NCBI GenBank assembly: GCA_028015205.1
Contig: CM051520.1
Coordinates: 10,140,501 to 10,204,500, forward strand
Length of the DNA: 64,000 nt
Source: Mytilisepta virgata
Taxonomy: Eukaryota > Mollusca > Bivalvia > Mytilida > Mytilidae
Reading direction: 5' to 3'
A program made the position numbers and the translations under genes. Under the pieces are notes generated by a model. That model saw only the letters and a list, made by a program, of their open reading frames with translations. It searched no databases and had not been told where the DNA came from. Positions 39,101-62,600 of this stretch are shown piece by piece. The number at the start of each line of letters is the position of its first letter. The first letter of the stretch is position 1.

Positions 39101-42100
39101 CCGGTGTCATTAAAAAGTTCATTCTTCCAAGGATTGCAATAAATAGTGGATAATCTTTTAATAAAAATCTTTTTAAAATGTCATCAACCGACAGACCTAA
39201 AAAGCTCAGTGTACTATATATATACATGTAATCCAGATATCAAATCTACTGTTATGCTAGTCTTTTGACAATTGTAATGCTTCTTTTAGAAGTTTATTCT
39301 CAGAGCATTCTTATCCAATATTTTAATAAATTTATAAAAGTTTACACTGAAGAAAAGTGGAAATCTACATAATTCAGCCATGATTAATGAATTAGTACTT
39401 TTTCTTCGTACACCAAGAATACATTTACATGCTTTAATATTCATTTTTTCTATGGTATTTTCATTACATAATCTTTAAAATGATTAGTTAGATTTTAAGT
39501 TTATTGTGATTAAAGCAACCCCAAATTTCAGACCATACTGTAATAGCGACTGCCATGGGAGCATATGGGTCATTCAGAAAAGTCTTTGTTTAATGGGGGC
39601 AGCCATTGTGCAATCCGAAGTTTATTTATTTGTTAAACCAAATATGGCTACATTGTGCTACATACTAAGGCCAGAAAAAGTTTTGTTCGCCGGAAACAGA
39701 AGTAAATAAATTAAGGGATATAATTGCTTTAAATCATAATTTTAGAGTCAGAATCGAGATACCGGAAAAGAGTTTCTTGAAAAGGCTATTTCTGTGCTCC
39801 CATCATTGGCCACGCCAACAGCATTTTACAGATTGTTGGAATAAACAACATGATTGGGTTATAATGTAAAACATTTATTAGGCCCGATAGTCATAGTAAA
39901 AAACTGGGGAGGTAATTTATACTTAAGGTCAAGGCGAAGTAATTGAATGCCATCTAGTGTTCATTGGTTTACTGTTTCAAGGGTAACAGCCCCTTGTAAT
40001 TGTATTACGTCCCCGACTGATTGTCTGACGTCGTAGCCATTATGACGTTCACTCTGGAGGAGCAGTGGAGTCGCTCTAAGGTAGAAATAATGGTGTGTTC
40101 AGACGTCCAGTTATTACGCAACACAAAACTTTTTCGAAACGTTTCAAAACGCATTGTGCGGTCACACGTCATTGAGAATGTATATTAATAGTTTTTTATT
40201 TTGGTTACACAAAATTGATTTTAAGTTCTTTGGATTTTTCAAGGGTAAATATAGGTGCGAGTGAGGAATTTTTTTTTCTAATTGGATGGGTTTTTTTTTC
40301 AGGCGAATATAAAATTTAAGTGTGAAATAACTTTTTATTTTTAATCTGAATTAGGGGCGATTTTTGAGCTCTTATTTTTAAGTGAAGCGGCACAATCCAA
40401 CGACCTAAAAATCAGTTTGGTTTGGTCTAATTTGTCAGGGATTTTACGGCGAATAGTTTGTCCAAAATAATTACGTGGAGTTACAATTGGTCCACTTGAC
40501 GCACTGTGATTTATTTTAATATGTTACTGGACTATAAGGATACAGCTGCAATACAAATCATCCATCGACAACATGAAAATCAAACATTGTCATTCAACAA
40601 ATAATAAATAAAAGGAATAAGTAACGAATAAGGAATATGGAATAAGTAACGAATAAGGAATATGGAATAAGTAACAAATAAGGAATAAGTAACGAATAAG
40701 GAATAAGGAATAAGTAACGAATAAGGAATAAGGAAAAAGTAACGAATAAGGAATAAGTAACCAACTTGACGACCCTTAAAATCTGCAACTCCTTACAAAA
40801 AGCAAAAAAAAAAATAAATAAAATGATCAATGAATAAATAAATAAAAAATTAACAAAAACATAAAATTAAAATTAAAAAAACAACATCAGATGAAAGACT
40901 AGAGGCTCTCAAGAGCCTGTATCGCTCACCTGGATTTAACTTTTCACCTTGAGCAGACCTAAAAATTTAAGTGTTGCAGTCAATTTGTCCGGTTTTTCTA
41001 TAGGATTCTGTGTTAAACTAATTTCAGCTGTGGCAGCCATCTTGGTTTAGTCCAGGTCAACGGAAACATTTCTAAAAGAGAACCATCTAAGGACCATTTC
41101 TGCTAAGTCTTGTTCCAACTGGCTAAGCGGTTTCAGACAAGAAGATTTTTAACTGAATTTTTCTATAGGGTCCAATATTTAACAAAGTTCGGTGTGGCAG
41201 CCATCTTGGTTGACAATCCACATGATCGGACATATTTCTGAAAGAGGATCTCCTAAGGACCAATGCTGCCAAGTCTGGCTCCAATATGTCAAGTGGTTTC
41301 AGACAAGAAGATTTTTCAATTAATTTTTCCATAGGGCCCTATGTTAAACTAAGTTCTGCTGTGGCGGCCATCTTGTTTGACAGTCTGGGTCGTCGCACAA
41401 AAATTCTGAAAGAGGACCATCTAAGGACCCATTGCTACCAAGTCTAATTCTAATTGACTTAGTGGTTTCAGACGAGAAGATTTTTGAGTGAATTTCCCAT
41501 AGGGTCCTATGTTAAACTAAGTTCTGCTGTGGCGGCCATCTTGGTTTACAGTCCACGAAATTTGACACATTTCTGAAAAAGGACCTCCTAAGGACCAATG
41601 CCGCCAAGTCCTGCTCCAATATGTCAAGTGGTTTCAGACAACACAATTTTTCAATGAATTTTCCTATAGGGCCTATGTTAAACTAAGTTCAGCTGTGGCG
41701 GCCATCTTGGTTCACAGTCCGGGTCATCAGACACACCTCTCTAAGAGGACCATCTAAGGACCATTGCTGACAAGTCTGGTTCCAATTGGTCAAGTGGTTT
41801 AAGGCAAGAATATTTTTCAATGAATTTTCCCATAGGGCCCTATGTTAAACTAAGTTCGGCTGTGGCGGCCATCTTGGTTAACAGTCCGGGTCATTGGACA
41901 TATTTCTGAAAGAGAACTTCCTAAAAACCATTACTGCCAACTTTGGTTCCAACTGGCCTTGTAGTTTCATATAAGAAGGTTTTTGAAATTCACCCCCCCC
42001 CTTTTTTTCTATTTTTAGTAACAGCAGCCATGGAAGTCGGGGATGCCAGACATAAGTTTGGAAGGGGGCCAGCCAAGAACCATTCCATCAAAGTCTGGTC

Positions 42101-43758
42101 TCAATTGGCTCAGTGGTTTGAGAGGAAAAGATCTTAAAAGCAAAGTTTACGCTGAATGCCGTCTTTAAAGGGCAAAAACTCCTATAAGGGGTCAATCAAC
42201 GATTTTGGTCATGTTGACTTATTTGTAGATCTTACTTTGTTGAACATTTTTGCTGTTTACAATTTGTCTTTATCTATAATAATATTCAAGATAATAACCT
42301 AAAACTGCAAAATTTCCTTAAAATTAAAAATTCAGGGGCAATAACCCAATAAAGGGTTGACCGATTCGTCTGAAAATTTCATGACAGGTAGATCTTGACC
42401 TGATGAACATTTTTACCCCATGTCAGTTTTGCTCTAATTGCTTTAGTTTTTGAGATATAAGACAAAAACTGCAGTTTACCCCTATGTTCTATTTTTAGCC
42501 ATGTCGGCCATGTTGGTTGACAGGCGGGGTCATCGGACACATTTTTTAAACTAGATACCCTAATGATGCTTGTGGCCAAGTTTGGTTCAATTTGGCCCAG
42601 TAGTTTCAGAGGAGAAGATTTTTGTAAAAGTTAACAGACGACGACGACGGACGACGGACGCCAAGTGATGAGAAAAGCTCACTTGACCCTTTGCGTCAGG
42701 TGAGCTAAAAAAGGTTTGTTGTTTGTCCTATAATTATTATCTGCAATACATAAACGTTATTGAACGCTGGACGTCATGACGTTGCCTGAAAAAATCACCA
42801 AAATTAGTAGCTTGATTGTATCTTCAGCAGCAGATACAACGAAATCAAGCATGGGGACCCCCAAATATTTTTATATCATCAGAAAGCTGGTGGATGAGGC
42901 AATATAATATTAGTTTTTCAAGAAACTGTAGGATTAACATCAATGGTTTTTATAGACTTTTCGAGCAAAATTGTCGAAAAATTGATGTTTTCCCTATCTA
43001 TCCTATGTTAAAAGTTGATTTCAGAACGCATTTTCAAAGGGTTATAGCAAAAAAATAAGCATGGGTACCCCCATTTTTTATTTCATATTCCAATGTATTT
43101 TTACTAGCTTTACATATTGCCAAAAAATTAGAAAACTGTAGGATACTTTCAATTACTTCACCTTGACCTTAATTGGAAATTGAGCAATTGTCTAAGTTTA
43201 AAAATTACTTAAGCTGACCAAAATGAACAATTTCTCAACAGATGATAACCTACCTTTGTTGCCAATAGTCATACATATTGTATTTTTCACTGCTGAAATG
43301 CCTCAAATATTTTGCAAGATCATGTTTTAAATATTTTGTCTGCAATAAATATTTTTTGGCATAAAAAAAAAGCATCACCATGACTGCTAGGACATATCTA
43401 ATTGTTGTAAAACTGTAATTCAGTCCTGACTTTTTTGCTAAAATATGCTGGATACACAGTAAGTTTAAAATTAAATGTAAATGTTTGCCTTTTAACTTAG
43501 TAACTTCATTGTTATGTCGTCCTCTTATGGTAATATTCTGAGTTCTCATATTCATTTCCACCTATAAAAATAAAGGCATCAAAACCCTCAGCAACTAAAT
43601 GAATTAGAGTGGGTGTTTATTTTGCTAAGAGCATGACAATGTGTTGTAATATTGAATATTATTGTATTTGAAACACTTGACAGTTGACAAGGAAGAAAAC
43701 TCACAGATTCAGCAGTATTACTAGGGCTAGGAGATCTCTGGACGGTTACTAAAGCCAT
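1..43758 (-). CDS. ssh: Slingshot cofilin phosphatase, 5' 14 coding exons (partial, runs off left edge)
   Basis: Slingshot enzymes are dual-specificity phosphatases that remove the inhibitory phosphate from cofilin/ADF and so promote actin turnover; they act in the cytosol on F-actin. I joined 14 exons by GT-AG sites and phase: 1392 nt, 464 codons, no stop. In order: family N-terminus MALVTVQRSP (1-10); SSH-N region including FTVKGAA and QDTEESVILGVDF (about 62-270); DEK_C region (about 265-330); LYLGSEWNASN; phosphatase domain with REIDNFFPG, the presumed acid-loop Asp in EWDCEETDLL, and the HCX5R signature HCKMGISR with Cys412 and Arg418. Introns are long (intron 1 7.5 kb, intron 2 11.4 kb, intron 3 12.6 kb) and full of repeats. 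The end of the catalytic domain and the C-terminal tail lie outside the window. I cannot say which vertebrate paralogue is closest. Identity is from recalled family sequence; the exon structure is read directly. Confidence 0.95.
733..793 (-). CDS. ssh: ssh coding exon 13 (catalytic loop)
   Basis: 61 nt with acceptor CTTTCAG and donor GTGAGT. Reads EKNGRILVHCKMGISRSAST. HCKMGISR is the HCX5R active site, with nucleophile Cys412 and phosphate-binding Arg418. All catalytic residues are intact. Confidence 0.97.
1250..1339 (-). repeat. Repeated copies of ssh exon 12 donor junction
   Basis: On the minus strand the junction AAAGTCAG/GTAAAT of exon 12 recurs twice downstream in the intron (near 1303-1316 and 1254-1267), each followed by a similar ATGTAGAAATC stretch. 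A third weaker copy ends near 1212. Confidence 0.85.
1340..1486 (-). CDS. ssh: ssh coding exon 12 (phosphatase domain, acid loop)
   Basis: 147 nt with acceptor CATTTCAG and donor GTAAAT. Reads VHHIMNISREIDNFFPGI, then YYNIKEWDCEETDLLKHW and ISKV. REIDNFFPG and the Asp of EWDCEETDLL (general acid position in the family) are conserved. Copies of both its acceptor side and its donor side lie in the flanking introns. Confidence 0.96.
1598..1829 (-). mobile_element. tRNA-derived SINE copy
   Basis: On the minus strand, from 1826: a tRNA-like head with box A (GGTGGACGAGAGG) and box B (GAGTTCGAATCTC, 1743-1755), followed by a body containing the gtactccggcttcctcc core. It is the same body as the copy at 33789-34010. 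Inserted in ssh intron 11 in the same sense as the gene. Confidence 0.75.
1843..2000 (-). repeat. Two decayed copies of ssh exon 12 acceptor side
   Basis: Sequence at about 1843-1902 and 1903-2000 repeats 1441-1545, covering the intron end, the acceptor and the start of exon 12 (gaaaaagttgtcaat and tgtaccctgaaat are shared). Both copies have lost an open, full-length exon. Confidence 0.75.
2502..2677 (-). CDS. ssh: ssh coding exon 11 (DEK_C region and start of phosphatase domain)
   Basis: 176 nt with acceptor TTTTTCAG and donor GTACGT. Contains LRTKLEEQMNMKLDKWKSYI and LTILGQMDSPTLIKDYLYLG then SEWNASNIEEL, strongly matching the family's EMLLILGQMDKPS and HLYLGSEWNASNLEEL. Confidence 0.96.
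3084..3171 (-). CDS. ssh: ssh coding exon 10 (DEK_C region, first half)
   Basis: 88 nt with acceptor TTTTTTAG and donor GTAAGT. Reads DEIAFLKTVRAELKNVMMKE then DLDEATSKY, matching ERLIKAKLRSIMMSQDLENVTSKE of Slingshot. This begins the DEK_C helical region. Confidence 0.93.
3221..3540. repeat. 80-bp tandem array, 4 units
   Basis: Units begin agaatccacacat at 3223, 3303, 3383 and 3462 and are nearly identical apart from T-run length and a few bases in the last unit, so the array is young. It lies about 50 bp upstream (in transcription order) of ssh exon 10. Confidence 0.95.
3690..4720. repeat. 157-bp degenerate tandem array, about 7 units
   Basis: A unit with ctgtatgtagatg, gcaataaggtttt and ggggcccacaggggttg recurs at 3734, 3891, 4048 and 4205 (spacing 157 each) and then more irregularly at 4335, about 4510 and 4661, increasingly diverged. 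It fills most of ssh intron 9. Confidence 0.88.
4835..4894 (-). CDS. ssh: ssh coding exon 9
   Basis: 60 nt with acceptor TTTCAG and donor GTAAGT. Reads HFTEDLLFFKAEPVLLPTD. This is the variable linker before the DEK_C region; the call rests on perfect phase on both sides and the equivalent linker in homologues. Confidence 0.87.
5490..5624 (-). CDS. ssh: ssh coding exon 8
   Basis: 135 nt with acceptor AATTCAG and donor GTAAGT. Reads FTLQSLNKLVAIARDNKY, then SHTWISFYESSINSD and RRINDW, matching the SALQVLHKACEVAR and YYESCI region. The acceptor and the first ~50 nt are repeated several times in the upstream intron (see 5641-6860). Confidence 0.95.
5641..5796 (-). repeat. Tandem partial copies of ssh exon 8 acceptor end
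   Basis: Two ~82-bp units, each carrying the intron end (TTATAAATCAG or AATTCAG) and the first ~50 nt of exon 8 read on the minus strand, followed by a shared spacer. The second unit is interrupted at 5796 by the insertion 5797-6745 and resumes at 6746. Confidence 0.9.
5797..6745. mobile_element. hAT-like non-autonomous insertion, 949 bp
   Basis: Ends CAGGGTTTGAA and TTCAAACCCTG are inverted. AATTA occurs on both flanks (5792-5796, 6746-6750); a hAT would normally give 8 bp, so the family call is tentative. It contains two strong hairpins (5922-5941 with CACCTCGC arms; 5960-5978 with CCCCCAGA arms) and a 3' tandem stretch with repeated gggcgac and ttggcccacac. Short ORFs inside are not recognisable as transposase. 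Confidence 0.65.
6746..6860 (-). repeat. Further copies of the exon 8 acceptor unit
   Basis: Continues the array after the inserted element: one full unit (about 6761-6842) and a partial one. The insertion therefore happened after the tandem duplication. Confidence 0.88.
7525..7590 (-). CDS. ssh: ssh coding exon 7
   Basis: 66 nt with acceptor TTTACAG and donor GTGAGT. Reads GFSITSAGNRLVFKPVTVQV then MW, matching GGFSVSTAGRMHIFKPVSVQ. Phases join exons 6 and 8. Confidence 0.94.
7706..9455 (+). mobile_element. Helentron-like (HINE-type) element, copy 1
   Basis: Head with AGGCTCC/GGAGCCT hairpin followed by gctcacctg; tail with tccctttggg hairpin and cacgtgagctaa. The interior is made of ~165-bp units containing gttaaactaagttcgg and ggccatcttggt. 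It is interrupted by an opposite-facing copy (8597-9258). Confidence 0.65.
8597..9258 (-). mobile_element. Helentron-like element nested in copy 1
   Basis: Starts on plus with agctcacctggcc hairpin and ggcgtccggcg and ends ggtgagtgatacatgctc...gcctcttgtt, i.e. tail to head. It splits the cttttttctatttttag motif seen whole in other copies (e.g. 42000-42020), which fixes the insertion point within a T run. Confidence 0.65.
9672..9856 (-). CDS. ssh: ssh coding exon 6 (SSH-N core)
   Basis: 185 nt with acceptor TTTACAG and donor GTAGGA (a weaker donor). Contains KYMAVV, KQDTEESVILGVDF, ATIGLVLPVWADTHI and LDGDG, the most recognisable part of the SSH-N region, which in this family contributes to F-actin-dependent activation. 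Confidence 0.95.
9974..10351. mobile_element. TTAA-flanked MITE, copy 1
   Basis: TTAA at 9974-9977 and 10348-10351. The element 9978-10347 has inverted ends GGATGTTC / GAACATCC. Its body is similar to copy 2 (cagaatcc..tggttttat; caaattttcaatggcct against caaattttcaaggcct). TTAA duplication is typical of piggyBac transposition. Confidence 0.7.
10352..11082. other. ssh intron 5 stretch, nothing recognised
   Basis: AT-rich intronic DNA between the TTAA MITE and exon 5. I see no exon, RNA gene or clear repeat. Confidence 0.6.
11083..11147 (-). CDS. ssh: ssh coding exon 5
   Basis: 65 nt with acceptor CATTTTAG and donor GTAAGT. Reads DIQSHLESMIALLRRQDTIAL, matching the family's GDLPQHLQVMINLL region. 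The split codon joins exon 4 as Gly. Confidence 0.93.
11933..12033 (-). CDS. ssh: ssh coding exon 4 (SSH-N start)
   Basis: 101 nt. Reads FSESYFTVKGAALILPQ and on, matching the conserved SESFFMVKGAALFL region of Slingshots. Donor GTAAGA. The acceptor is probably TTTGTAG at 12034; an alternative TTTCAG six bases further in would remove the first two residues and keep the frame. Confidence 0.93.
12356..12508. repeat. Palindromic MITE-like element
   Basis: 35-bp arms (12356-12391 and 12474-12508) with one indel between them (ATAACTAATTCAAGAATTTG outer part), and an 80-bp GC-richer centre. Confidence 0.8.
13763..13935. repeat. Minisatellite gattgggaatggaagtttga
   Basis: About seven degenerate 20-24-bp units of gattgggaatggaagtttga. 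Confidence 0.88.
14292..14660. repeat. Direct repeat A, left copy
   Basis: Contains a self-complementary block (14301-14420: cagtcatg...catgactg, gtgagatgggacaattccac) followed by a segment ending gtcatgtgatgtgagatgcat. A diverged direct copy occurs at 15590-16090. Confidence 0.7.
14710..15590. repeat. Large fold-back (inverted repeat), arms ~400 bp
   Basis: The left arm (about 14710-15150) is the reverse complement of the right arm (about 15185-15590) with a spacer of ~35 bp around 15165. Shared blocks include gcaagacggaaaaatctcag, caccggtg, the ttggagacca segment and gccaccgacgagtgaaac. Apparent ORFs on both strands are shadows of the symmetry. Confidence 0.9.
15590..16090. repeat. Direct repeat A, right copy
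   Basis: Repeats the left copy (14292-14660) in the same orientation: gtgagatgggacaattccac, accatgactgattatttttc and gtcatgtgatgtgagatgcat. It therefore brackets the fold-back. Confidence 0.7.
16091..17782. other. ssh intron 3 stretch, nothing recognised
   Basis: AT-rich DNA. ORFs at 16088-16315 and 16776-16994 are short, lack recognisable motifs and run through T-rich sequence. Confidence 0.55.
17783..19985 (+). mobile_element. Helentron-like element, copy 2 (full length)
   Basis: Head AGGCTCT/AGAGCCT hairpin at 17786-17801 and gctcacctgg; tail TGACCC/GGGTCA hairpin and caggtgagcta. Interior units start (ctatgttaaac) at 18457, 18622, 18789, 18956 and 19123, so the period is ~167 bp; one half-length unit of ~80 bp starts near 18212. 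No ORF of transposase size, so non-autonomous. Confidence 0.72.
20015..20399. mobile_element. TTAA-flanked MITE, copy 2
   Basis: TTAA at 20015-20018 and 20396-20399; ends GGATGCTTGGTC / GACCAGCGATCATCC. Same family and length class (377 bp) as 9978-10347. Confidence 0.7.
20400..24674. other. ssh intron 3 stretch, mostly unrecognised
   Basis: Apart from the 27-bp array (22557-22775) I see only AT-rich sequence and short unsupported ORFs. Confidence 0.55.
22557..22775. repeat. 27-bp tandem array, 8 units
   Basis: Units of aacttggtaaatttctagta-tatttaa; starts of cttggtaa at 22564 and 22591, then 22618 and on, a 27-bp period. Each unit contains a ggtaag/ggtaaa donor-like hexamer on plus, which is antisense to ssh. 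Confidence 0.92.
24675..24746 (-). CDS. ssh: ssh coding exon 3, probable cassette exon
   Basis: 72 nt (24 codons) with acceptor TTTATTTCAG and donor GTGAGA. In the frame set by exons 2 and 4 it is open and reads SKSALKRLKKLFHTVRFISK and on, a basic amphipathic segment. Because its length is a multiple of three, exon 2 to exon 4 also joins in frame. Vertebrate Slingshots as I recall them lack this segment, so it may be optional. No other member of the family confirms it here. Confidence 0.6.
26625..27190 (+). mobile_element. Penelope-like retroelement fragment with inverted flanks
   Basis: Open frame 26784-26978 reads KPVASHFNGHSI and later YRRIRES, CNTQKEGLN, which resembles the end of the GIY-YIG endonuclease of Penelope-like elements. 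It is bracketed by a perfect 28-bp inverted repeat (26741-26768 and 26964-26991), and the symmetry continues outward (ctgatgaag/ccaatgaag, ctccaaaatatt, tttgcgtttt). The reverse transcriptase is absent. Family call is from recalled motifs. Confidence 0.5.
29220..29610 (-). repeat. Tandem array containing repeated donor-like motif
   Basis: The motif acttacc-gtcagtattttctgta recurs five times (near 29226, 29276, 29392, 29496, 29583). Two ~104-bp long units (29319-29422, 29423-29526) are nearly identical. Read on the ssh strand each copy gives GACAG/GTAAGTTT or similar. Confidence 0.85.
31552..32500. repeat. 174-bp tandem array with poly-G end
   Basis: Five units with gatggcatactggtaccccc, ccatgttttgctatgg and ggaggtgcacta start near 31557, 31726, 31900, 32074 and 32249. 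The array ends in gttgcggatacaaagg, ggacacaacgaatactata and a run of 12-13 G. It has the layout of another non-autonomous element with internal satellite units. Confidence 0.82.
33789..34010 (-). mobile_element. tRNA-derived SINE copy, diverged
   Basis: Shares the body of the 1598-1829 copy (aggaagcc.gagtacccagag, then tggcaatccttgtcaat and cgaacacaccccgcca). The tRNA-like head is decayed and box B is disrupted. Confidence 0.7.
36183..36238 (-). CDS. ssh: ssh coding exon 2
   Basis: 56 nt with acceptor AATTACAG and donor GTATGA. Encodes an acidic then basic stretch (EEVDTEDGSNLKSPNRSR, then a split codon), equivalent to the acidic region that follows the start in other Slingshots. It ends with two bases (AG) that complete a codon either with exon 3 or directly with exon 4. 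Confidence 0.85.
36917..37091. repeat. Palindromic MITE
   Basis: Arms 36917-36968 and 37039-37091 are inverted (agttatggaatttttccacc against ggtggagaaattccataact). The interior is also partly self-complementary, so the whole 175 bp could fold. Confidence 0.85.
37391..37502. repeat. Palindromic MITE, second member
   Basis: Arms agactctaccattgtttttt (37391 on) and its inverse ending 37502. The interior cgaaaatttaactatctcga resembles the interior of 36917-37091, suggesting one family. Confidence 0.78.
37768..38665 (+). mobile_element. Helentron-like element, copy 3 (no central units)
   Basis: Head aggctctaaagagcat and ttcacctgg; tail aaagctcacttgacc, truncated before the final ggtgagct. It lacks the 167-bp units and keeps the tail half with cccctatgttctattttta and aactagataccctaatgatg. 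Confidence 0.6.
38666..39922. other. ssh intron 1 stretch with LINE remnant
   Basis: Beyond the LINE remnant (38770-39480), the part 39500-39922 has short ORFs and a somewhat higher CG content but no feature I can name. Confidence 0.5.
38770..39480 (-). pseudogene. Decayed LINE reverse-transcriptase C-terminal fragment
   Basis: Minus-strand translation contains CILGVRRKSTNSLIMAELCR-FPLF (39440-39340) and, after a stop and frame damage, NCSKRSILSKFTIRSHQFEI (about 38985-38925). Both blocks resemble the C-terminal part of molluscan non-LTR retrotransposon proteins (LGV.RST...E.GRFPL; KFRLS.H.L.IE). Broken and incomplete. Confidence 0.6.
40614..40762. repeat. Minisatellite ggaataagtaacgaataa
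   Basis: About six imperfect units of ggaataagtaacgaataa with short extensions (ggaatat, ggaataagg). The open frame across it is an artefact of the repeat. Confidence 0.9.
40899..42710 (+). mobile_element. Helentron-like element, copy 4 (full length, nested)
   Basis: Same head, ~167-bp units and tail as copy 2, with strong similarity along most of the length. It is inserted into the larger TTAA-flanked element 39927-43168. Confidence 0.72.
43705..43758 (-). CDS. ssh: ssh coding exon 1 (start codon)
   Basis: Encodes residues 1-18, MALVTVQRSPSPSNTAES, which matches the conserved Slingshot N-terminus. The start codon is the plus-strand CAT at 43756-43758. The donor GTGAGT follows at 43704-43699, and the exon ends in phase 0. 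The 5' untranslated part continues upstream to an unknown start. Confidence 0.93.
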
Positions 43759-47019: not shown

Positions 47020-47638
47020 ACTGTAAAATGGCTGAAGTTTTGCCACCTAAACCTAACTCTGGACGAATAGGAAGTCCAACAAAGAGAGTCAGTATGACTA
47101 CTCCACAAAGTCCTGGTAGTGGGAGACAGTCTTTGACCCCAGGCAGTGGAAAACATACGCCAACTGGATCAGATTACATGAGGCCTGTCGTACGAAGTGC
47201 TGTAAGGAGATGGAAAAGACTTCATGAACAAAACATGATGGAAAAGTTGGTTGGTATGAGAAATGAGAAGAAAAACAGTACCAGAAGTTCTAGAGAGGAT
47301 GCAAGAAAATTGGCAAGGAAAATTCCAACTGAAATTCTTGCTAAACAGTGGTTGAATGATAATGAAGCTACCTTGGAAATAAGGGCCTATCTGGTCGACA
47401 AAGTTCTACCTACTTTGATTTTGGGAGTAGAAAAACTGTTAACAGAAGCAGACAAGAAAGGATTGACAGAAGAAAATGAAGAGGACCCTAATTTTAATCC
47501 AATCAATTTTCTTGCACAATATTTAATGAGAAACAATCCTAAATACAGCAATTTCTCAGAAGCATCACCATATGTTAGAGGTTTGAGAGAAGTGGCTGAG
47601 GAACTCCGGAGACAGCTATTTAATATTGAAGATAACAG
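47020..47638 (+). CDS. EFCAB5: EFCAB5-like exon with start codon (coding from 47028)
   Basis: Acceptor TTTTATAG at 47012-47019, then 8 nt before the ATG (aaaATGg context). Encodes residues 1-204, including the DPY-30-like pair. The donor is GTTTGT at 47639. Reading past the donor adds [12 protein letters not shown], which is intron. The acceptor implies at least one upstream exon, probably non-coding, that I could not locate. Confidence 0.88.
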
Positions 47639-50600
47639 GTTTGTTTATGTTATCATTATTCAGAAACTCCTGGGATGATGCCTCTGCTGGTGGACCCTAG
47701 GTCCCCGAGGGTATTCGCCAACCCAGTCGTCAGACTTGTCTGACATGATTATTCATTGATTTTTTACAGAAATTACCAGTATTTAGCAAAATTCAAAAAT
47801 AATAGAAATACTAAGGGTTCATTCCTTGTATTGCACATGGTAGATCTCCTTAGCTGAAATTTGGCTTCCTATTTCGGTATTTTTGGTTGAGTACTTCCTG
47901 TTTAATATAAGTTTGGTATTTGGTCTTCCAAATGTTTCGGTTTTAATGCTGCTGATGAGAGGTAACTCCTTGAAATGCGTCATATACAGCATAGTATAAA
48001 TTAACTATATCTGATATAAGTATCTTTGGATTGTTATTTTGAAACTCCTGGGATGATGCCTCTGCTGGTGGACCCTAGGTCCCCGAGGGTATTCGCCAAC
48101 CCAGTCGTCAGACTTGTCTGACATGATTATTCATTGATTTTTTACAGAAATTACCAGTATTTAGCAAAATTCAAAAATAATAGAAATACTAAGGGTTCAT
48201 TCCTTGTATTGCACATGGTAGATCTCCTTAGCTGAAATTTGGCTTCCTATTTCGGTATTTTTGGTTGAGTACTTCCTGTTTAATATAAGTTTGGTATTTG
48301 GTCTTCCAAATGTTTCGGTTTTAATGCTGCTGATGAGAGGTAACTCCTTGAAATGCGTCGTATACAGCATAGTATAAATTAACTATATCTGATATAAGTA
48401 TCTTTGGATTGTTATTTTTATCATGAAAAAAAAAGTGATCAACATCTCCATGTATCCAAGAATTTTTCTAAAACTAATGCTAGGGCTGTATATGAATTTG
48501 ATTGAAGTAAAGCATCAATCAAACTGATGCTAGGGTTGTCTATACATTTGATTGATATGTAAGATGTTTAAGGTCTCAAACTGATGCTAGGGATATCTAT
48601 AAATTTGATTGATATGTAAGATGTTTAAGGTCTCAAACTGACTCTAGGGCTGTCTATAAATTGGATTGATGTGTTAGATGTTTAAGGTCTCAAACTGATG
48701 CTAGGGCTGTCTATAAATTGGATTGATTTGTAAGATGTTTAAGGCCTTACAATGACTAAATTTAAGATGAAGAACAACATTGAGAGGGCTTTTCCATTAG
48801 TTGCAGTATTTACACTTGTATAAATCCCTTTCCATTCACTGGAAATGTAAAGAACCCAACAATATTCAACATATATATGAACCATCAACCAAGATGGCCA
48901 CCACAGCCAAACTTAGTTTAACATAGGACCCTATGGGAAATTCATTTAAAAATCTTCTTGTCTGAGACTACTGAGCCAATTGGAACCAAATTTAGCAACA
49001 ATGGTCCTTAGAAGGTCCTCTTTCAGAATTGTGTAAAATGACTCAGAGGATCAACCAAGATGGCCGCCACAGCCGAACTTAGTTTAACATAGGACCCTAT
49101 GGGAAATTCATTTAAAAATCTTCTTGTCTGACACTACTTAGCCAGTTGGAACTGAATTTAGTAGTAATGGTCCTTAGATTGTCTTCTTTCAGAATTAAGT
49201 CCGATGACCTGAACGATCAACCAAGATGGCCACCTCAGCCGAACTTAGTTTAACATAGGACCCTTTATGAAACTTAATTGAAAATCTTGTATGAAACAAC
49301 TGGACCAATTGGAACCAGGCTTGGCACCAATGATCCTCAGATTGTCCTCAGAATCGGAGGATCAACCAAGATGGCCACCACAGCCGAATTTCGGGGAAAA
49401 TTCATTCTTGTCTGAAAACACTAAGCGAATTGGAACCAAACTTGACAGATATGGTTCATAGGTGGACCTCTTTCAGAATTGTGTCCAATGACTCAAAATG
49501 TCAACAAAGATGGCTGCCACAGCTGAACTTAGTTTAACGCAGGACACTATAGGAAAATTCATTAAATAATCTTCTTGTCTGAAACCACTGAGCAAATTGA
49601 TACAAGACTTGGCAGCAATGGTCCTTAGATTTCTCTCAGAATTGTGTCAGATGACCTAGATGGACTGTCAACCAAGATGGGCATTGCTGTTTCCTTTTTT
49701 TTTTAAACTACTGAGCCAATTGGAACCAAACTTAGCAGCAATGATCTTTAGATGGTCCTCTTTCAGAATTATAGCTGTTGACCTGGCCTGTCAATCAACA
49801 TGGCCACCAAAGCTGAACTTAGTTTAATATAGGACCCTATGGAAAAATTTAATTTGCAGATCATCATACCTTAAACTTGGCCATTGGGAACCAGACTAAT
49901 GGCAGCAATTGTCCTCTTTAAGAAATGTGTTTGATAACCTTGATGTCAACTAAGATGGCCACCACAGCGTAACTTTGTTTAACATTGTACCTGATGGGAA
50001 AACCAGCCAAGCTAACTGCTACACTTAAATTTTCAGTTCTGCTGAAGGTGGAAAAGTTAAATCCAAGTGAGCGATACAGAAGAGCCTGTAGTTTTAATTT
50101 GTAAAAATTCATTAGAATTTTTGAAAAATTTGCTAACATAAGTTTTGATGGAACAATGTTTCAGTGATGTTTATTGGGTAAAATTAATGTTATTTAAATT
50201 ATTTCTCTGTAAATGGAGTGTGAGTTAGTGCAAATAATATACGTGTATGTAGACAAATTTTATATAATTGATTTAAAATTATCTGACATCAACAGACTAG
50301 CAAGAATCAAAACTGAAGCAAAGAGAAGAAGAGAAGAAAGAGAAAAATTAGAAAAGGCCAAACAGAAAGAAAAAGAAAGAAGAGTAAATACCTTAATGGG
50401 TCAGTTCAGAGAATGGAATTCTCACCCAGACGGAAAAGTTGAACTTTCATTGGTATATAATTTCTGTTTTTCTTAAATTGAGAGATACAATATATATACA
50501 TTATAGATTGCCATTTGCTTTTTAGGCCAGGTGAGCTTATGCCATCACTTGGCGTACGTCGTCTTCGTAAACTATTTCAAGGATCATCTCCTCAAAAAAT

Positions 50601-53600
50601 ACTGGGCCAAATACTTCAAAACTTTAAGTGAATGTTTCTAGTTTATAAATTGTGCCCACAGTTTTGATCCATAATCAGTTGCTAAAGCCATTGCTAAAAA
50701 TAGAACATAAGGGTAAACTGCAGTTTTTGTCTTGGATCTCAAAAACTAAAGCATTTACAGCAAAACTGACATGGGGTAAAATGTTCATCAGGTCAAGATC
50801 TACCGAACTTATTTTAACATAGGGCCCTACGGGAAAATTCATTGAAAAATTTTCTTGTCTGAAATAACTTGACCAATTGGAATGGCAGCAATGGTCCTTA
50901 GGAGATCCTCTTTCAGAAATGTGTCTGATTTTGTGGACTGTGAACCAAGATGGTCGGCACAGCCGAACTTAGTTTAACATAGGACCCTATGGGAAATTCA
51001 CTCAAAAATCTTCTTGTCTGAAACCACTAAGCCATTAGAACTAGACTTGGTAGCAATGGCCCTTAGATGGTCCTCTTTCAGAATTTCGTCCGATGACACG
51101 GACTGTCAACCAAGGTGGCCGCCACAGCCATAGTTTAACATAAGGCCCATGGGAAAATTGATTTAAATATCTTCTTGTCTGAAACCACTTAGCCAGTTGG
51201 AACAAAAGTTAGCAGTTAATGGTCCTTAGATAGTTCTCTTTTAGAAATGTTTCCATTGACGTGAACAGTCAACTAAGATGACTGCCATAGTTGAATTTAG
51301 TTTAACATAGAACCCTATAGAAAAATCAGCTAAATTGACTGGAACACTTAAATTTTTAGTCCTGCTCAAGGTGAAAAGTTAAATCCAGGTGAGCGATACA
51401 GGCTGTTGTTAGTCTCTTGTTTTATGAGTTATTGGTGTCATGCACAACAGTATGCAATGAAAATTTCAGTTTATTGATTAGGTTTTGTATTGAGTGTAAC
51501 GTGTGATACTGAAAATTATCAACAAGAAAAAGCATCATACAATGTTACAAAACCACAATAAAACAATTTTTCCTGTCGATTGAAATCAATAAGATTAAGA
51601 GCATTATGAAAACATGCTTAATGTCTGAAACATTTATACATATTCCACTCTTACCAGCGACTGTTGCTAGGTGCCATCTTGAACTTGTTCTGGGATGTGA
51701 TATTTTTCTCCATGTTCATGGCTGAATTATTTTCTGTTAATTTTTTTTTTTTGCAGAAATGTTTCTTTTACTGTAAGCCTGGAAATTTTCTCATCTTTTT
51801 TTCCACGATTTTGCAAATAAGTTCAATGAAATAATTACATTATTCAGATTCGGTGGACAATGAAAATATATTTAAATACTTATTTTTGGTGGTTTATTTT
51901 CATGTTTAGCTTACCTGGCCTGTAGGACATGTGAGCTAATGTCATCACTTTGTGACCCTCTTCCATCGTCTGTCGTCGTCCATAAACTTTTCACATTTTG
52001 ATCCCTTCTTTGAAACTACTAGACGGTTGACTTTTGGTTGAGATTCATCTCATCAACCAACAGCTATGGCTATTCAAAATTTCATTGAAACCATATGGGA
52101 AAGGACTCTATTGTCATTTGCTCAGGAACTTATGGGCAGATTGTAACCAAAAGTTGAGGAAACTCATATGGAAGGACAGTTGCAAATGATCCACCTTTTG
52201 TTAAGTCGAAAGTCAAATATCAAGGTTACTTTGACATTTTGGATTTCTTCAACAGCTTGTGGCTCCATAAATAGCTTACATTTTCAAATGGCCTAATAAA
52301 AGCCAGGTGAGCAATTTTCCTCCAAAAGGGAGGCACAATCCATTATCTACCCTTGGTAATATGATTAAGGGGAGATAACTGACTGATGATTGCCATAAAA
52401 ATAGTTAATATTGTATTGATTAGTTAACACACCAAAATGCTATAATTTTAGGGTATTTTGTTTTTTCAATATTGAATGTCATCAGTTTCATTCCAGGTCC
52501 AAAATGCATTAAGATCATTTGCAGAGATAGCCGAGACAACATTTCCAGAGGAACTCAGAGATTCCGCTAAACTTAGTCGAAGTTTGGAGGCGACAGATGA
52601 AAGTGGAAAATGTCTCACTGTAAAAGATTTCGCTGCAGTACGTTCAAAATTAAATAAGTTCAGAATTTTATTTTGGTTATTTTCTCTAACAGTGCTAAAG
52701 AATTTGTAATAACATAATAGAAAAAAAATTTGTAAATATCTCAACATAAACCGTGAAATTTTATCTTTTATTAGTGTTTTAGTTAGAAATTTTCTACAAA
52801 ATTCATTGATTTTTAAATGTAGCACACCAAATAGGTGAAAAACTCAATTATGTCCACTATTCTGTAATTCCATATCACAGAAATGTCAAGTATATGAATA
52901 TAAAAAAAGTCTAATGAGAAATAAATAAAACAACAGATGCTGCTGCTGAATTATGTTTCTCCAATTAAACTGGAATGGGGGAGGCAACAAGTTAATTTGA
53001 TGTGTATCATAATATATAATTTGTGTTCAAACACAAAATGGCATGCTTTGTGTTTCACTGCAAATGATGATTATCAGTTCAAATATATTTTAAAAAGTAA
53101 TGAATTTTTGTGTCATCCACTGTCTTATCAAGTAACGTAGTATCAGACAGTATCATGTGATCATCTTGGTGGTATTTATGTTTGCCTTAATCTGAAAAAA
53201 TTACTGTCATATTATGCAATACATAAAAACAACCCTTCTGCTTTGATTTATAATCAGTTCAATATAATGCTCAGTTGATTTAATTCACAAACTATAATAA
53301 AACAAAACAATAAATTAACGATTATTGTTATTTTATTTTGCAGTACCTCTGTATGTTTGTGGAAGACTTAGGCAGAGATTTATTTGACGAGTTTATGAAG
53401 CATTTGAGAACATGTGCGATATCATACAGGGCTGCAACTGAAAGAGAAAACAGGAGGATAGCACTTACAAATCTCTTTATATCATGTGATCATAGTGGTG
53501 TAAGTTACAAAGATAGATCAGATAGTCATAGTACATGCATAAATGATTTGAGTTAAACTTATTGTAACTGATTTTTATACGACTGCAAATATTTGCGGTC

Positions 53601-56600
53601 ATATTATCGTATGATCCTGTGGGCAGCATCATACATTGGCATCAATGTCCATAGACAGTTAGGTTTTCTTTTGTTCTAGAGAACATATCCTTATGGTATT
53701 TTACCGTAATGGTTCCCCATCATAAATACAGGTTGGGATTGATTTTGGGAAATCTGGCCCCGTCCATTTTTTTTCTAGCGGTCATTAAGGCTTTTTGATA
53801 ATTTTAGTGTAAATTTTTCAATATTTGTCAGATTTTTATGATTATTTGTTAATAATGTTCCTTAATAAAACTTGAAAATCTTGCATTTATAAGTCAATTT
53901 TTCACTATTTCATACCGTTCAAGAGACAAAAGGAACACACCTTAATTTTGAAACTTTTTTTTATTTCTTATCCAATTTTGAAGATTTTTGCTCACCTGAC
54001 CCGAAGGGTCAAGCTTTTCTCATCACTTGGCGTCCGGCGTCCGTCGTCCGTCGTCGTCCGTTAACTTTTACAAAAATCTTCTCCTCTGAAACTACTTTGC
54101 CAAATTGAACCAAACTTGGCCACAAGCATCATTAGGGTATCTAGTTTAAAAATTGTGTCCGATGACCCCGCCTGCCAACCAACATGGCCGACATGGCTAA
54201 AAATAGAACATAGGGGTAAACTGCAGTTTTTGTCTTATATCTCAAAAACTAAAGCAATTAGGGCAAAACTGACATGGGGTAAAAATGTTCATCAGGTCAA
54301 GATCTACCTGTCATGAAATTTTCAGACGAATCGGTCAACCCTTTTTTGGGTTGTTGCCCCTGAATTGTTAATTTTTAGGAAATTTTGCAGTTTTAGGTTA
54401 TTATCTTGAATATTATTATAGATAAAGAAGACAAATTGTAAACAGCAAAAATGTTCAACAAAGTAAGATCTACAAATAAGTCAACATGACCAAAATCATT
54501 GATTGACCCCTTATAGGAGTTTTTTCCCTTTAAAGACGGCATCCAGCGTAAACTTTCCTTTAAAGGTCTTTTCCTCTCAAACCACTGGGCCAATTGAGAC
54601 CAAACTTTGGTGGAATGGTGCTTGGGTGGCCCCCTTCCAAAATTATGTCTGGCATTCCCGACTTCCAACTGAGATGGCTGCTGTTACTAAAAAAATAGAA
54701 AAAAGGAGGGGGGGTGACTTTCAAAAATCTTATATGAAACTACATGTCCAGTTGGAACCAAAGTTGGCAGTAATAGTTCTTAGGATGTTCTCTTTCAGAA
54801 CTATGTCCAATGACCCGGACTGTTAAACAAGATGGCCGTCACAGCCGAACTTAGTTTAACATAGGGCCTTATGGGAAAATTCATTGAAAATCTTCTTGTC
54901 TTAAACCACTTGACCAATTAGAACCAGACTTGGCAGCAATGGTCCTTAGATGGTCCTCTTACAGAGGTGTGTCTGATGACCCGAACTGTCAACCAAGATG
55001 GCCGCTACAACGGAACTTAGTTTAACATAGGGCCCAATAGGAAAATTCATTGAAAAATCTTCTTGTCTGAAACCACTTGACATATTGGAGCCAGACTTGG
55101 CGGCATTGGTCCTTAGTAGGTCCTTTTTCAGAAATGTGTCTGATTTCGTGGACTGTGAACCAAGATGGCCGCCACAGTAGAACTTAGTTTAACATAGGAC
55201 CCTATGGTAAATTCACTTAAAAATCTTTTCGTCTGAAACCACTAAGCCAATTAGAATTAGACTTGGCAGCAATGGTCCTTATATGGTCCTCTTTCAGAAT
55301 TTTGTGCGATGACCCAGACTGTCAACCAAGATGGCCACCACACCCGAACTTGGTTTAACATAGGGCCCTATGGAAAAATTCATTGAAAAATCTTCTTGTC
55401 TGAAACTACTTGACATATTGGAGCCAGACTTGGCAGCATTGGTCCTTAGGAGGTTCTCTTTCAGAAATATGTCCGATCACCCGAATTGTCAACCAAGATG
55501 GCTGCCACATCGAACTTTGTTAAATATTGGACCCTATAGGAAAATTCATTTAAAAATCTTCTTGTCTGAAACCGCTTAGCCAGTTGGAACAAGACTTAGC
55601 AGAAATGGTCCTTAGATGGTTCTCTTTTAGAAATGTATCCATTGACCTCGACTAAACCAAGATGACTGCCACAGCTGAAATTAGTTTAACATAGAATCCT
55701 GTAGAAAAACAGCCAAATTGACTGCAACACTTAAATTTTTAGGTCTGCTCAAGGTGAAAAGTTAAATCCAGGTGAGCGATACAGGCTCTTGAGAGCCTCT
55801 AGTTTTTTAAATGGTTCTTCATAAGAAATACAATAAAATTTACTCACAGCATATTTGTGTTAGTTTTGTTGTTGCAGAGATAAAAGGGATTAAAGGGGCC
55901 AAATTTAGCCATTTTGCAGGACGCCTGATTTAAAGTTTTCCAGTAAAATTTGCACAGATTTCTTCTATCTTTTACAGTTTTTAAGGGGTTAAAAGGGCCA
56001 AAAATTCAATGTTTCTTGATATGTAATTTTTTCAAATTTTCATGAGAATATTTCTTTTAATTCACATTGGTGAATGCATCATTAGTATGTCAACAATTTT
56101 TTTCTATCTTTTATTGTTTCTGAGATACAAGGGGTCAAAGTTAGCAATTTTGGAGGAAAAATAAAATTTGTTTTTCATCCAATTTCAGTGGAGATTTTTT
56201 CTTTTAATTCATCTTGATGAGTACTTTCAGTAGTATGTCAACATATTTTTAATTTCTTTTACAGTTCTTCAGATTCAGGGGGCTAGTGGTGCCAAAAAAG
56301 CATGTTCTGGTCGTTACATCATGCTGCACTTTGGGAAGCCCTTTATTTAAGTTGAAGACAAAAATTAATTTTTATGTAAAGAAATTGCTGCTTTAAGTAA
56401 AGAAAATTATTTTTTTATTTCATCAATGAATAATTTGTATACAAATACATTAAAATTCTGTTAATTTCAGGTTGGATTGCTAGACAGACATAGAATTCTC
56501 AGTTTGTTTGAAAATTTCTGGGATTCTGTGAAGGATGAAATCAAGCAGCATATAAGAAATCCCAGGAAATGTAAGTACCAGAAGGAACCTTTTACAAATC

Positions 56601-59600
56601 AGGATAATCCCAAAAACTCTCCCCTCCCCTTGCACAATTCCTGTATATAGATGATTTTGAATTGAAAGAAATCATTATAATTTTGTTTTATTTTATATTT
56701 ATTTATTTACTTTTTATTCATCTGAAAGAACAAAATCTTTCATTTCAGTAGTTTTGGAATATGAATCCTTTTAAAGAGAAATCATATAAATATTACTTGT
56801 GTAATTGTTTTATACAATTTATTATTAGACATTAGGAATAAGTTTTCTAGCACTTAACATAAATATTTGAAATCTAAAACTTTACAGCAAGGTAAATATA
56901 CCTCATATTTCTATTGGATCTCTTAATTTTAAAAAGAACTGATTAAGATTGTACAATCCATATATTTTATTGAATCAGTGAAAGCTTTTTCAGCTTGAAA
57001 CAATCCATATATTCTATGGTACGTTTTCTATACATCATAACATCAAATATATTATTTTACTTATTTTTACTATATAGTTTTACTATCTACCTTGCCATTT
57101 ATGTATTTTCTATGAAGTATGTTTACTGATTGGCACCCACGTCAAATAATTTTTTGTTTTTGTTTACATTTTATGTACGGACTCGGTCTTGCTCTGGGTT
57201 TCAAAGAGTCAACACCTTTTTATTTTTATTTTTTAATATGCTCGTGATCAAGACCATTTGGTCGAAACGTTGGGTATTTTTAACTTTTTAGTTTGTTGTT
57301 GTTTTTTTTTTTTTTACGATTTTATATTTGGTTTTGCTCGACTTGTGTATTTCTTACATTTTAGTCGTTCTATGCCCCTTTTGACAGCTCACCATTTCCA
57401 TTTATTTTTCTTGATATCTCTTTTATTGAATGTTTTTCATTTGGTATTTTAAGGGCCTGTTGTTGAAGTTGATGAAGCTGTTGATAATTTGTCTGATGAT
57501 GAAGATGAATCCTCATCACAGAACACAGAAGATGGTACTTCACAGGAATCAGGAAATACTGCTTCACAGAAACCATCAGATACATCTGTAACAAAGACAA
57601 TATCAGAGGAAGTCACAACTTCGGAGGAAGGTTTGAAACAAATTATGACTTTGACTTTTTTGGGGGGGTTCACACAAAAATTAGCACAGTGGTAAAAGTT
57701 ACATATATAAAATGGTGTGGTGGATTATGATGGACGTGGCACTGTATGGTTATTTTGGTGTGAAGACAGAATTTGCAAAATAAACTCAAAATTTTGAAGG
57801 TTTAAATTTCAGCACATCACTTTAATGTAATAGAAAAGCTTTCACTGACTGTCTGATCATTCACATGCATGAATTTTTATTGCATGATCTCATTTACATT
57901 TTGTTTCTGTTAGTTTTTTGTTTATTTAATGTTTTCATGTAATTATTTAATGGGAAATATTTGTCAGATATCTCCCTTAATCAGAGGTACCCAAGGGAGA
58001 TAATTTCAATTTTACCCCTTTGGTCCTTAGTGCTACAGGGGTGTAATTCTATTTTCTCTTTGGTGCAATTTGATTTAGGGAGATAAATAATTAATATTTT
58101 TCATTGTTTATTTTTATTTGCTTATTAATGCAATATCAGCAAAAACAGAGGAACAAAAACCAACACCAGAAGAACAAACAATAGAAATGCCTCCTAACCA
58201 AGAAGAAAAATCTAAAAGCCCTCCACCAGCTACAGAACAGGAAAAGGCTGATGAGGTGAAAGTGACTGAAGACATTAAAGAAAAAGAAGTTAAGTCTGAA
58301 TCTAAACCAGAAGAAACAAAGTCAGCTGAGGCAGAACCTACAAAATCTGAAGAAATTAAACCAACAGATGATTCAAAACCATCTGAAGTCAAGGAACAAG
58401 TAGAAACTCAAAAGGTTGAGACTAAAGAAGAACAAATGGCAGAAAAACCGGAGACAGAGACTTCAAAGGATGAAGAACAAAAATCAGAGGCTCCAAAGGA
58501 AGAGGAACAGAAATCAGAGGCTCCAAAGGAAGAAGTACAGAAATCTGAGGCTCCAAATGAAGGAGAACAGAAATCTGAGGCTCCAAAGGAAGAAGAAGTA
58601 CAGAAATCTGAGGCTTCAAAAGAGGAGACAAAAACTGAAAAAACCGGGCAAGTTGAAGAAAAAGAGGGAGAGAATGTAAGTGCAGATGAAAAGGTAGAGG
58701 TAAAATCAGATGAGGCAAATGTTGAGGTCAGTACAGAGAAGGAAACAGAGGTAAAAACAGACAAAGAAACTGAGGAAAATAAAACAGATAAAGGAACTGA
58801 AGCAAATGGTGAGATGGAAGTTGACAAATCACAGGATATTAAATCTCAAGGTAAAAACAGATCATCTACATTATACTGCTCACCAAGAAATATATGTTAT
58901 TATGTATACTGTAACAGTGAACTGTTCGTGTAAATATTCTAAAATCTGTAAAGACAGATAAGGTAAAAAATTGAAGTGGAAAATGACATAACAGAAACTA
59001 TGCTATGCACTTAACATTTGCTAAAAGGGGTAACCAGATACACATTAAACATATAAAAACATGCACAAGGATTGTGGTGTGGAAGGAATGGAATTGCATG
59101 CTTAAGTTATGTTTTAGTTTTTGAGGTTTCCTTTCAAAAACCCTTTTGCATGGTATTGAAATGCATGAACATTTTTGTTCGCCTTAATTTCATTTTCTGT
59201 TTAAATATGCTTTTTTTTTAATGAAGATGAAAATTATGATTATAAGAAGTTTTATTAAGTGTGACATTTTGATCATTTATGACAAAGAATAATAGAAGAA
59301 AGTGTTGCATTGACAGAATTAGAATAACTTAATTGTGATTTTTTAAGTTATATATGTGCATTATACAATATACCCTCTCTCTGGTAAGATCTGGAAAACA
59401 CCACTGTATACTAATCTATTTATAGGAGACAAAGTGAAAGTACATGCAGAACTGATATAGAATTGTCAGTATGTTTTCATATAAAATTTTTCCCTTTTTT
59501 CTTGCCTGGAAATATGCAAAATTTCAGTTGCCAAATTTTATTTTTATATGTGTAGATATAGTTTCTATTTTTCAATTTAACCATTGAAAAATTCTGTTGA

Positions 59601-62600
59601 AGCTTATAACTAAAGGTTTAATGAGGATTTTTATACAATTTTTTATTGTATACTGACATAAAGAAATCTGTTTAAAGCTACAGAATCAGAAGATCTAACT
59701 GGAAGAGAACCATCGGAACAAACTGTAAATTCTGAGGCACCTATAGGAAGTGTGAAGTTTGCTAAGGGAACTGAATTTGAGAGAGAAAGAACAGGTAGAT
59801 TATATAATACTGTCAAAAATATTTTGTGATCAGAGGAATTTTAAGAATTCAAGAGTAAATATAGAGTATAGAGCAACTCTTTCAAATCAACCTTATTAGT
59901 ATCTTTTGAATAAAAGAGTTTGATATAGCAAGAGTCTTTTATGACACGACATGAAATGTTATTGTTATAAATAGGGCTTATTTTTTATACTGAATATGTT
60001 TTGTCTGACCATAGACTTTATCATAGGGTGACAAATAGTTTTTCCTGGTTTCCTCTCATTCTCCAGCTTCCTCTACAAGTAACAAGTGGCCACCATCAAA
60101 GTAACATAGGACCTCAGTAGACAAAACTTACCTACTATAAACATTGACATTTGTACAGCATTGAATTTAACAGTGCCTATTGTCATATATTTACAGTGAT
60201 GACAGCTAGAAGTCAGCAGTCAGGAACATCAGCATTTGATGAGAATGTATTAAATGTTTCACAGTTTGTCCAGCTAACGGAAACTTTCCTAAGTAAAGAT
60301 GAAAAACCAAGACAAAATGCATTTATAACGCTTGCTCAGTTTATCAGGGAAGGATATGAAGAAACAGAGGAGGAAAAAATGGAACGATTGGTTAAGGTGA
60401 ACAATTGATTCTTCCTTAAAAATGTGATCTTTCTTCAAACACATCTGGAAATTGTTTAAACCACTGTTATAAAATATCATTTGTTTGAATTTACATGTAT
60501 TCGTTTGGATGAATTTTCTGATTTCCTGATCTTAATAATATCAGTTATTGGGATTTCATGTACTTAATTAATGTAAATAAATAACTGAATGTGTTTCTTA
60601 GGAATGTTGCCTTATTCTACTGTCGGTAAATTTGGTACCTAAGCATAAAGTAATAACTTTTTATTTTAGGCACGTAAAGAAGCTCTGTCATCTCAACGTA
60701 AGCAGATGATGGATCAGTTGTTTGAAAAGTGGGATAACGATGGATCTGGTTTCCTTGACTTAGAAGATGTGGAAAATATTATGATTAAGTACAAAGACGG
60801 TCAAGAGAATGAAGCTATAAATAAAGGTCTGGAATATTAATATACAAGAGTTTCAAGTTAATGCATATTTGACTTCACAATAAAAATATATTCAGCTCAC
60901 AATTTTCATTGAGACAATCTATGCCTATTCATCCCAGAGGTAATCTAGCATATTTTGTTCATAATAAGAAATGTGAAGTTAGTGCAAAATACTTCAGTTC
61001 TCTAAACATGTTGTAATGGGTTAGAAATAGTTGGAAGATTTCATGATCATGATTGTAAAATGTCACTGTAAATTCAGAAATTTCATTTCGTATTGCTAAT
61101 CTTTGTTAAATGAAAATATTGTGAGTTTACTTATGCATGCAGTTGACCTAAAATTGAATTCGCTATGATATGGCTGCAAAAAGTGGCATTAGACACCATT
61201 CAATCAATCAGTCATAGTTAGTAATATATAACTGACAAAAATTAAAATGCAAGTTTATCGTGACACATTTTTTTTACAAAAACGTTGGGATAATTTAAAA
61301 ATTTCAGAATATGTTTGAAATCAACCAAAGATTCCTAGGCAATATAATCCATCAAAACGTACTTGACTATAAAAAATTACATGTATTTTATGTTGAAATT
61401 TCATATCTAAGTTAAATTAGAGTTCATCTATAATCTAATGCTGAAATAGCACATATCTGTTGTTTTTAGCAGTGAAACGTCCTCAAACCAAAAAATCCTC
61501 CCAATTTGAAAGTAAGCTAGAAGGAAATTTAGATTAATTCTGTAAACTACCTAGACATGTAGTGATTGGTGTGTTGGTCTAAAATGTTTTAAAATTTTTA
61601 TCTTTAGATTTTGAAATATTATAAATATTTTAGTACCACATTAGCTATATTACAGCATAAAAAATACATGTATATTCTTTTCTTTTGAACAACTTATTAA
61701 CTTTAATGTTTTCAAAAAAATAAGGATGGGAGATGTTTCATTATATATATCAGGGTATTAGCAGTACTAGCAGGGTTCATGGTTTGTTTTGTACATGTAG
61801 TTTTATTTTAGTATAACTTGTTTTTAAATGTTGATTTAACTTTTTCTTTCTATAGTGATAATATATTTATATTTTAATATGAAATGATGGATAAGTTTCA
61901 TAGAGACTTGTCCAAAATCTAAAATCCTCACAGGCATGCAACCAACTCCATGTAAAGAAACAGCACTTATCTGCTGTTCATCATCTTAAAGTAACAGTGA
62001 AGCCTTCAGTACAGAAAACAATCTCACACCTTATTGCAAATTTAAGGCATACAGTTCTGAGGTTAATTATTATACCCCCGCTCTACGGAGTGGGTGGTAT
62101 GCTGGATTCACCTTGTCCATCCATCCATACGTTCAAACTGAAACTTTTCCCAATTTTCATAATTAAAAAAGAGTGGGGGTATACTTTGCACGATAACGCG
62201 TGCCTCATGTTTTTGCTGTTGTATTTTTATTTTTATTTTCAATTTCAATATAAATTTTTTAAACAAATGTCATAGGGCTTAAAATATGTACATTCATTAT
62301 TTATAATGTTATTTAAACATTTAAAATTAATTGCATGTTACCTTTGCTTACAGCTAAAGCCAAATTGAAGAAGACTTCAAAGTATGCCCAAGATAATAGA
62401 TTAACCAAGAGGGAATTCCGAACATTTGTAAATGCAGTTACAGATGAAATTTCTGGTGCCGATTCATTTGATTATTATATAGACTTCTTAACAAACAGTG
62501 TAGAGGTAAGTGATTGGATTTCAGTAGAAAATGTAAGGATATGAAGAATGCATCAATGAGACTAATATCCTGTTAAAAACATATACCATAGAACAGAAAA

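Follow-up and report, generated by a model that had tools for sequence, protein, structure and literature searches.

In the 64-kb stretch of DNA analyzed here (the window), a non-autonomous metazoan non-LTR retrozyme has probably inserted as a dimer into an intron of a mytilid EFCAB5 gene, a reading to which we give a probability of roughly 0.8. The element is a divergent member of an already published kind of mussel retrozyme, and its self-cutting motif is unusually built. The features of the locus are given below.

47028..47638, plus strand: EFCAB5 exon with the start codon and a Dpy-30 motif, from protein matches
47639..50295, plus strand: EFCAB5 intron with the insertion, 2657 bp, GT at 47639 and AG at 50294-50295
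47650..47656, no strand: left target-site duplication TTATCAT, perfect, abutting the dimer
47657..48417, plus strand: retrozyme insertion, 761 bp (2 x 378 + 5), head-to-tail
48418..48424, no strand: right target-site duplication TTATCAT, perfect, abutting the dimer
47663-47758 (first copy) and 48041..48136 (second copy), plus strand: conserved, structured domain common to the public repeat family, from tblastn, HMM, fold z -2.1 and a hairpin deduced in relatives
47946..47992, plus strand: unit 1 hammerhead, predicted cut after 47986 (AUA^C), alternative register after 47981 (GUC^A)
48324..48370, plus strand: unit 2 hammerhead, G at 48360 bringing helix III to four pairs, cut predicted after 48364
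47987..48364, plus strand: predicted 378-nt self-cleaved unit, placed by inference from the motif positions

The best EFCAB5 protein matches among 46 are two Mytilus galloprovincialis entries, and when five of these 46 proteins were aligned to exon 1 the identities were 87.0% (P0044) and 87.5% (P0045) for M. galloprovincialis, 73.7% for Crassostrea gigas (P0046), 68.8% for Ylistrum balloti (P0050) and 61.8% for Sinanodonta woodiana (P0057). Judged by these protein matches, the host gene is EFCAB5 of a mytilid mussel, probably of a species other than M. galloprovincialis. The element starts 18 nt past the splice donor and lies in the sense orientation. The original prediction of a metazoan retrozyme, in a mussel host, within an intron and in sense orientation is supported by the EFCAB5 matches together with the family homology described below. 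A large part of EFCAB5 could be followed over 47028-63276, where 10 of 12 tblastn pieces match P0044 at 76-93% and the other two at 38-53%; an acidic repeat-rich stretch at about 58100-58900 matches only P0045, at 22-35%.

Relatives of the element were sought using a 47-aa reading frame of a common mussel repeat as the query, and 43 clusters were obtained at E<=1e-3 among 46 candidates, all of them ENA ORFs. With tblastn, among the matches listed (P0001-P0029), 27 of the 29 ORFs match the dimer at E<=1, the best being P0020 at 5e-5, and P0007 and P0026 have no dimer match at that threshold. A profile HMM of all 43, run on the six-frame translation of the window with stops read as X, matched both units with per-domain E-values of 3-4e-5 and had no further match in the window at E<=1. 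The homologous stretch is short, with about 20 residues in its best part. The strings VVSTSVLT (5/43) and SQHFGVDMNI (2/43) fix the hairpin GTCAGCACTTCGGTGTTGAC in the relatives, and the fold of the conserved 96-nt domain has a z-score of -2.1 against 300 shuffles. Twelve of the 43 family ORFs enter from unlike sequence, from about 5 nt before to 40 nt after the matching cut, though these edges are not proof of 5' ends because an upstream in-frame stop biases them. When a 51-aa frame across the window hammerhead served as the query, the collection searched yielded no candidate with three words in common, and nothing close to the window subfamily turned up there. Searches for mussel relatives as DNA, with two patterns in viral_contigs and one in genome_contigs, gave no match, and a literature search for the motif letters found no paper. 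One hammerhead-pattern match each in viral_contigs and genome_contigs was taken as chance, with no CTGATGA within 60 bases upstream. Plasmid blastn gave no match, and the three Sulfolobus virus records returned by phage blastn, covering 16% of the query, were likewise set aside as chance.

The members of this family represent two different reading frames of one stretch of DNA, and in combination these fix most of its letters. Using only observed strings, namely TDESYVDETRVWR (1/43, P0039) and MSLM.TKRASGVLN (from P0007, one column being masked where the two members would otherwise conflict), the DNA of the relatives could be deduced as ACNGATGAGTCTTATGTNGACGAAACGCGCGTCTGGCGT, with one core base (N after AC) left unfixed; the 3' half of the motif is carried by more members (DETRV in 6/43, TKRASGV in 10/43). 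As deduced from these two frames, ACNGATGAGTCTTATGTNGACGAAACGCGCGTCTGGCGT has the layout of a canonical type I hammerhead bar the one unfixed core base, which is T in the common mussel repeat. A deduction with strings drawn partly from outside the 43 ORFs returned the same letters plus the missing base; of those strings, LMSLM, ISIMW and the full TDESYVDETRVWRTKL were each found in 0 of the 43 ORFs.

Each unit of the dimer contains the motif 5'-ATGCTG CTGATGA GAGG-TAACT-CCTT GAAA TGC..TAT A^CAGCAT, with CTGATGA cores at 47952 and 48330, a stem I of 6 bp, a stem II of 4 bp followed by GAAA, and a stem III of 3 bp in unit 1 versus 4 bp in unit 2. A strict descriptor (at least 5 pairs in stem I, 4 in stem II and 3 in stem III, with H before the cut) matches these two sites only on both strands of the window and has no match on either strand of first-order Markov sequence amounting to 4,260 windows, a simulated set in which a relaxed descriptor gives 214 parses. 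The claim that both units carry full type I hammerheads is in this respect confirmed by the descriptor, whereas the covariance-model check that had been proposed alongside it came out negative, the Rfam hammerhead models matching nothing at gathering score, nor at E<=10 in an 881-bp stretch. Two CyaR matches from Rfam (E 7.2) were rejected as chance. Comparison with the relatives reveals that three of the four stem II pairs have changed on both sides and are still paired, that the fourth, adjoining the core, has gone from G-C to G.U, and that the stem I pair adjoining the core is A-U in the relatives and G-C in the window. Since the changed stem II and stem I pairs stay paired, the window motif appears to have been kept as a hammerhead, and these two-sided changes, from one comparison, are the best evidence for this.

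The predicted place of the cut departs from that of the relatives. The window reads GAAATGCGTCATATA^CAGCAT, and in both units GCGTC still stands where the relatives have it, yet stem I begins five bases later. The cut seems to fall at AUA^C, five bases further on than the position corresponding to GUC in the relatives, and this register is preferred because in unit 1 its folding energy is better than that of the GUC register (-4.4 versus -2.1). AUA is a permitted hammerhead cleavage triplet. The passages of PMC6155905 that we consulted say nothing on AUA as a cleavage triplet. We have also to consider that the dimer is retrozyme-derived but carries a crippled hammerhead, in which cleavage was lost or became very slow and the copy moved via an uncut transcript. 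Relative to the family layout GAAA..GCGTC^, about five extra bases (ATATA) stand between GUC and stem I, and the G.U beside the core points the same way, as does the greater stability of an alternative hairpin: nearest-neighbor folding gives the hammerhead -4.4 (unit 1) and -7.1 (unit 2) against -11.8 and -12.6 kcal/mol for the preferred hairpin. The related canonical motif, with some letters filled in from outside the observed ORFs, is also not the minimum free energy fold (-5.7 versus -9.2 kcal/mol). Against a crippled motif, the change is common to both near-identical units, and therefore an RNA carrying it was mobilized; moreover, helix III comprises 3-4 pairs in the AUA register, where its folding energy is better than in the GUC register. 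We regard crippling as possible but doubtful, and its odds and those of the retrozyme reading are not exclusive because it is a sub-case of the latter. Our preference, guided by the folding models, is for a moved cut with a longer helix III over a damaged motif. Of the original description of the hammerheads as intact and potentially active, the retrozyme layout stands; intactness and activity are at most suggested, as helix III, the cleavage triplet and the G.U depart from the related canonical hammerhead, and the altered helix III puts activity in question. Pairing of two strands through helix III could reach 8/11 positions in a unit 1-unit 1 duplex, 9/11 in a unit 1-unit 2 duplex and 10/11 in a unit 2-unit 2 duplex, and by analogy such duplexes would suit the paired action reported for amphibian weak-helix-III motifs in passages of PMC7229834. 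As a tentative proposal, which we consider rather unlikely to hold in full, a mytilid lineage may possess a register-shifted hammerhead, in which bases added behind the former GUC lengthened helix III, the cut moved five bases to AUA^C, and A/G lap-to-lap differences at one helix III position tune solo versus paired action.

The insertion has clean ends. TRF gives a 378-bp period with 2.0 copies and a 99% match over 47656-48418, and the units differ only at 47661/48039, 47662/48040 and 47982/48360, the first two being adjacent and at the left edge, so that A at 47982 versus G at 48360 is the sole internal difference. Both the predicted pair of near-identical 378-bp head-to-tail units and the 7-bp TTATCAT duplication flanking it are borne out, and one internal difference per 378 bp backs the suggestion of recent mobilization. 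The units have a GC content of 36.5% and are non-coding, the longest ORF wholly within the element being 61 aa, and no LTR, PBS or PPT was seen in the element on reading its sequence. Beyond short pieces, there is no further copy of the unit in the 64-kb window, the next best match having an E-value of 0.04. A 7-mer was common to 329 of 20,000 random zone pairs of about equal size, and the TTATCAT repeat alone is therefore moderate evidence; it is better evidence when one also considers how exactly it fits the dimer. A plain satellite, or a tandem duplication that arose through processes at the DNA level, with the hammerhead as a passenger, would be in keeping with a tandem, non-coding element in a window rich in other tandem repeats, but is quite improbable given that the 7-bp duplication flanks exactly the dimer, that no similar place occurs elsewhere in the window, and that the homology is to a public repeat family found on many contigs. 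An assembly artefact, one unit doubled by the assembler, is suggested by the near identity of the units but is very improbable, as three positions distinguish them, including two at the left edge.

Several other repeats occur in the window. A 57-bp minisatellite (AAACTGATGCTAGGG..) of about five copies occupies 48471-48783, starting about 46 bp past the right TTATCAT, and the CTGATGC in it does not qualify as a hammerhead core. Six tandem arrays of a repeat of about 166 bp, in both orientations, have a GCTGTGGCGGCCATCTTGGTTGA-like sequence in common and lie at the following positions.

7787-8561: array of the ~166-bp repeat
17943-19267: array of the ~166-bp repeat
40993-41984: array of the ~166-bp repeat
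48879-49349: array of the ~166-bp repeat
50803-51326: array of the ~166-bp repeat
54752-55694: array of the ~166-bp repeat

Near-identical dispersed ORF-like stretches are found at 19611-20045, 42379-42630 and 54065-54316 and probably represent a further repeat family whose sequence reads as ORFs.

Both ends of the retrozyme insertion fall at nearly one position in the unit, 48 nt downstream of the predicted cut, where the circle would read TTATTTT/GAAACTCC; by simple arithmetic for one event, random ends would coincide within 6 nt in about 13 of 378 cases. Ends at this distance from the predicted cut imply a template that extended over the ribozyme junction, and as they lie at nearly one point, copying started and stopped nearly there. 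These end positions fit copying of a circle or of an uncut linear multimer. Target and circle are alike at 11 of 13 bases at the insertion point, a weak signal that we do not rely on, since 655 of 20,000 random draws within the window, those adjoining the element being skipped, score as well. The sense unit folded as a circle has an energy of -84.2 kcal/mol with a z-score of -0.9, 40 of 200 shuffles being as stable, and an exceptionally self-paired sense circle is thus unsupported, which speaks against the "highly self-paired" description; the antisense unit has a z-score of -2.1 against 200 shuffles.

The anatomy, the homology to a public family with a canonical hammerhead, the orientation and the near identity of the units are established in the window; the cleavage, ligation, enzyme used and present activity of the element we infer. 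We hypothesize that read-through transcription of an array would give an RNA in which each hammerhead cuts, that a host ligase would close the monomer into a circle, and that a borrowed reverse transcriptase of LINE or Penelope type would copy the circle about twice from one point, the product then being set into the target with a 7-bp duplication. Being recent, dimeric and clean-ended, the insertion offers a way to examine how such circles are copied into DNA, and the position of the ends away from the ribozyme cut, with start and stop nearly coinciding, bears on that question. The sense site 18 nt past a splice donor also offers a test of whether an intronic ribozyme pair can free a circle without harming splicing.

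The window element can be placed among known systems. Plant LTR retrozymes carry type III hammerheads in LTRs and measure about 700 bp, whereas the window element has type I hammerheads in 378-bp units. Penelope-like elements carry a reverse transcriptase gene, and no ORF longer than 61 aa is found inside the window element. The minimal hammerheads of Penelope-like elements and Terminons, as presented in passages of PMC7229834 and PMC7761336, resemble it in type I topology and in a proposed shared transposition machinery; unlike these, the window element is without a long coding frame and has a helix III. The amphibian repeats with type I hammerheads (newt, axolotl), 330-350 bp long according to passages of PMC7229834, resemble it in a weak helix III that is likely dimer-aided, and differ in host. 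The related public motif, deduced as GAAACGCGCGTC, has its expected cut after GUC, with TGG next and a 2-bp helix III, unlike the window motif with its predicted AUA cut, helix III of 3-4 bp and different helices I and II.

The closest likeness is to the metazoan non-LTR retrozymes, whose tandem units of 150-450 bp include the size found here (378 bp x 2). Such retrozymes have many dispersed genomic copies; the 64-kb window contains this one copy, and the related family counts 43 ENA clusters. Passages of Cervera & de la Pena 2020 (PMC7229834) describe metazoan retrozymes as dimers to large multimers with a GC content under 45%, and the target duplication, when present, as exceeding 4 bp; that of the window element is 7 bp, with no LTR, PBS or PPT seen on reading the sequence. 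For M. galloprovincialis, the same passages report some 5000 type I hammerheads, which form two families and usually lie in repeats of 350-390 bp. They describe self-cleavage as slow (about 0.1 per min), circRNAs on northern blots as abundant, most notably in gonad and mantle, and circularization by RtcB as far better than self-ligation. A review, in the part drawn on here, notes that a borrowed reverse transcriptase has been proposed to copy the circle into multi-unit cDNA (PMC7761336). The public family identified above is presumably the published M. galloprovincialis family, and the window element is like the non-LTR retrozymes of that mussel, as passages of PMC7229834 present them, in unit length (350-390 bp), type I hammerhead, tandem arrangement, low GC content, non-coding nature and mussel host.
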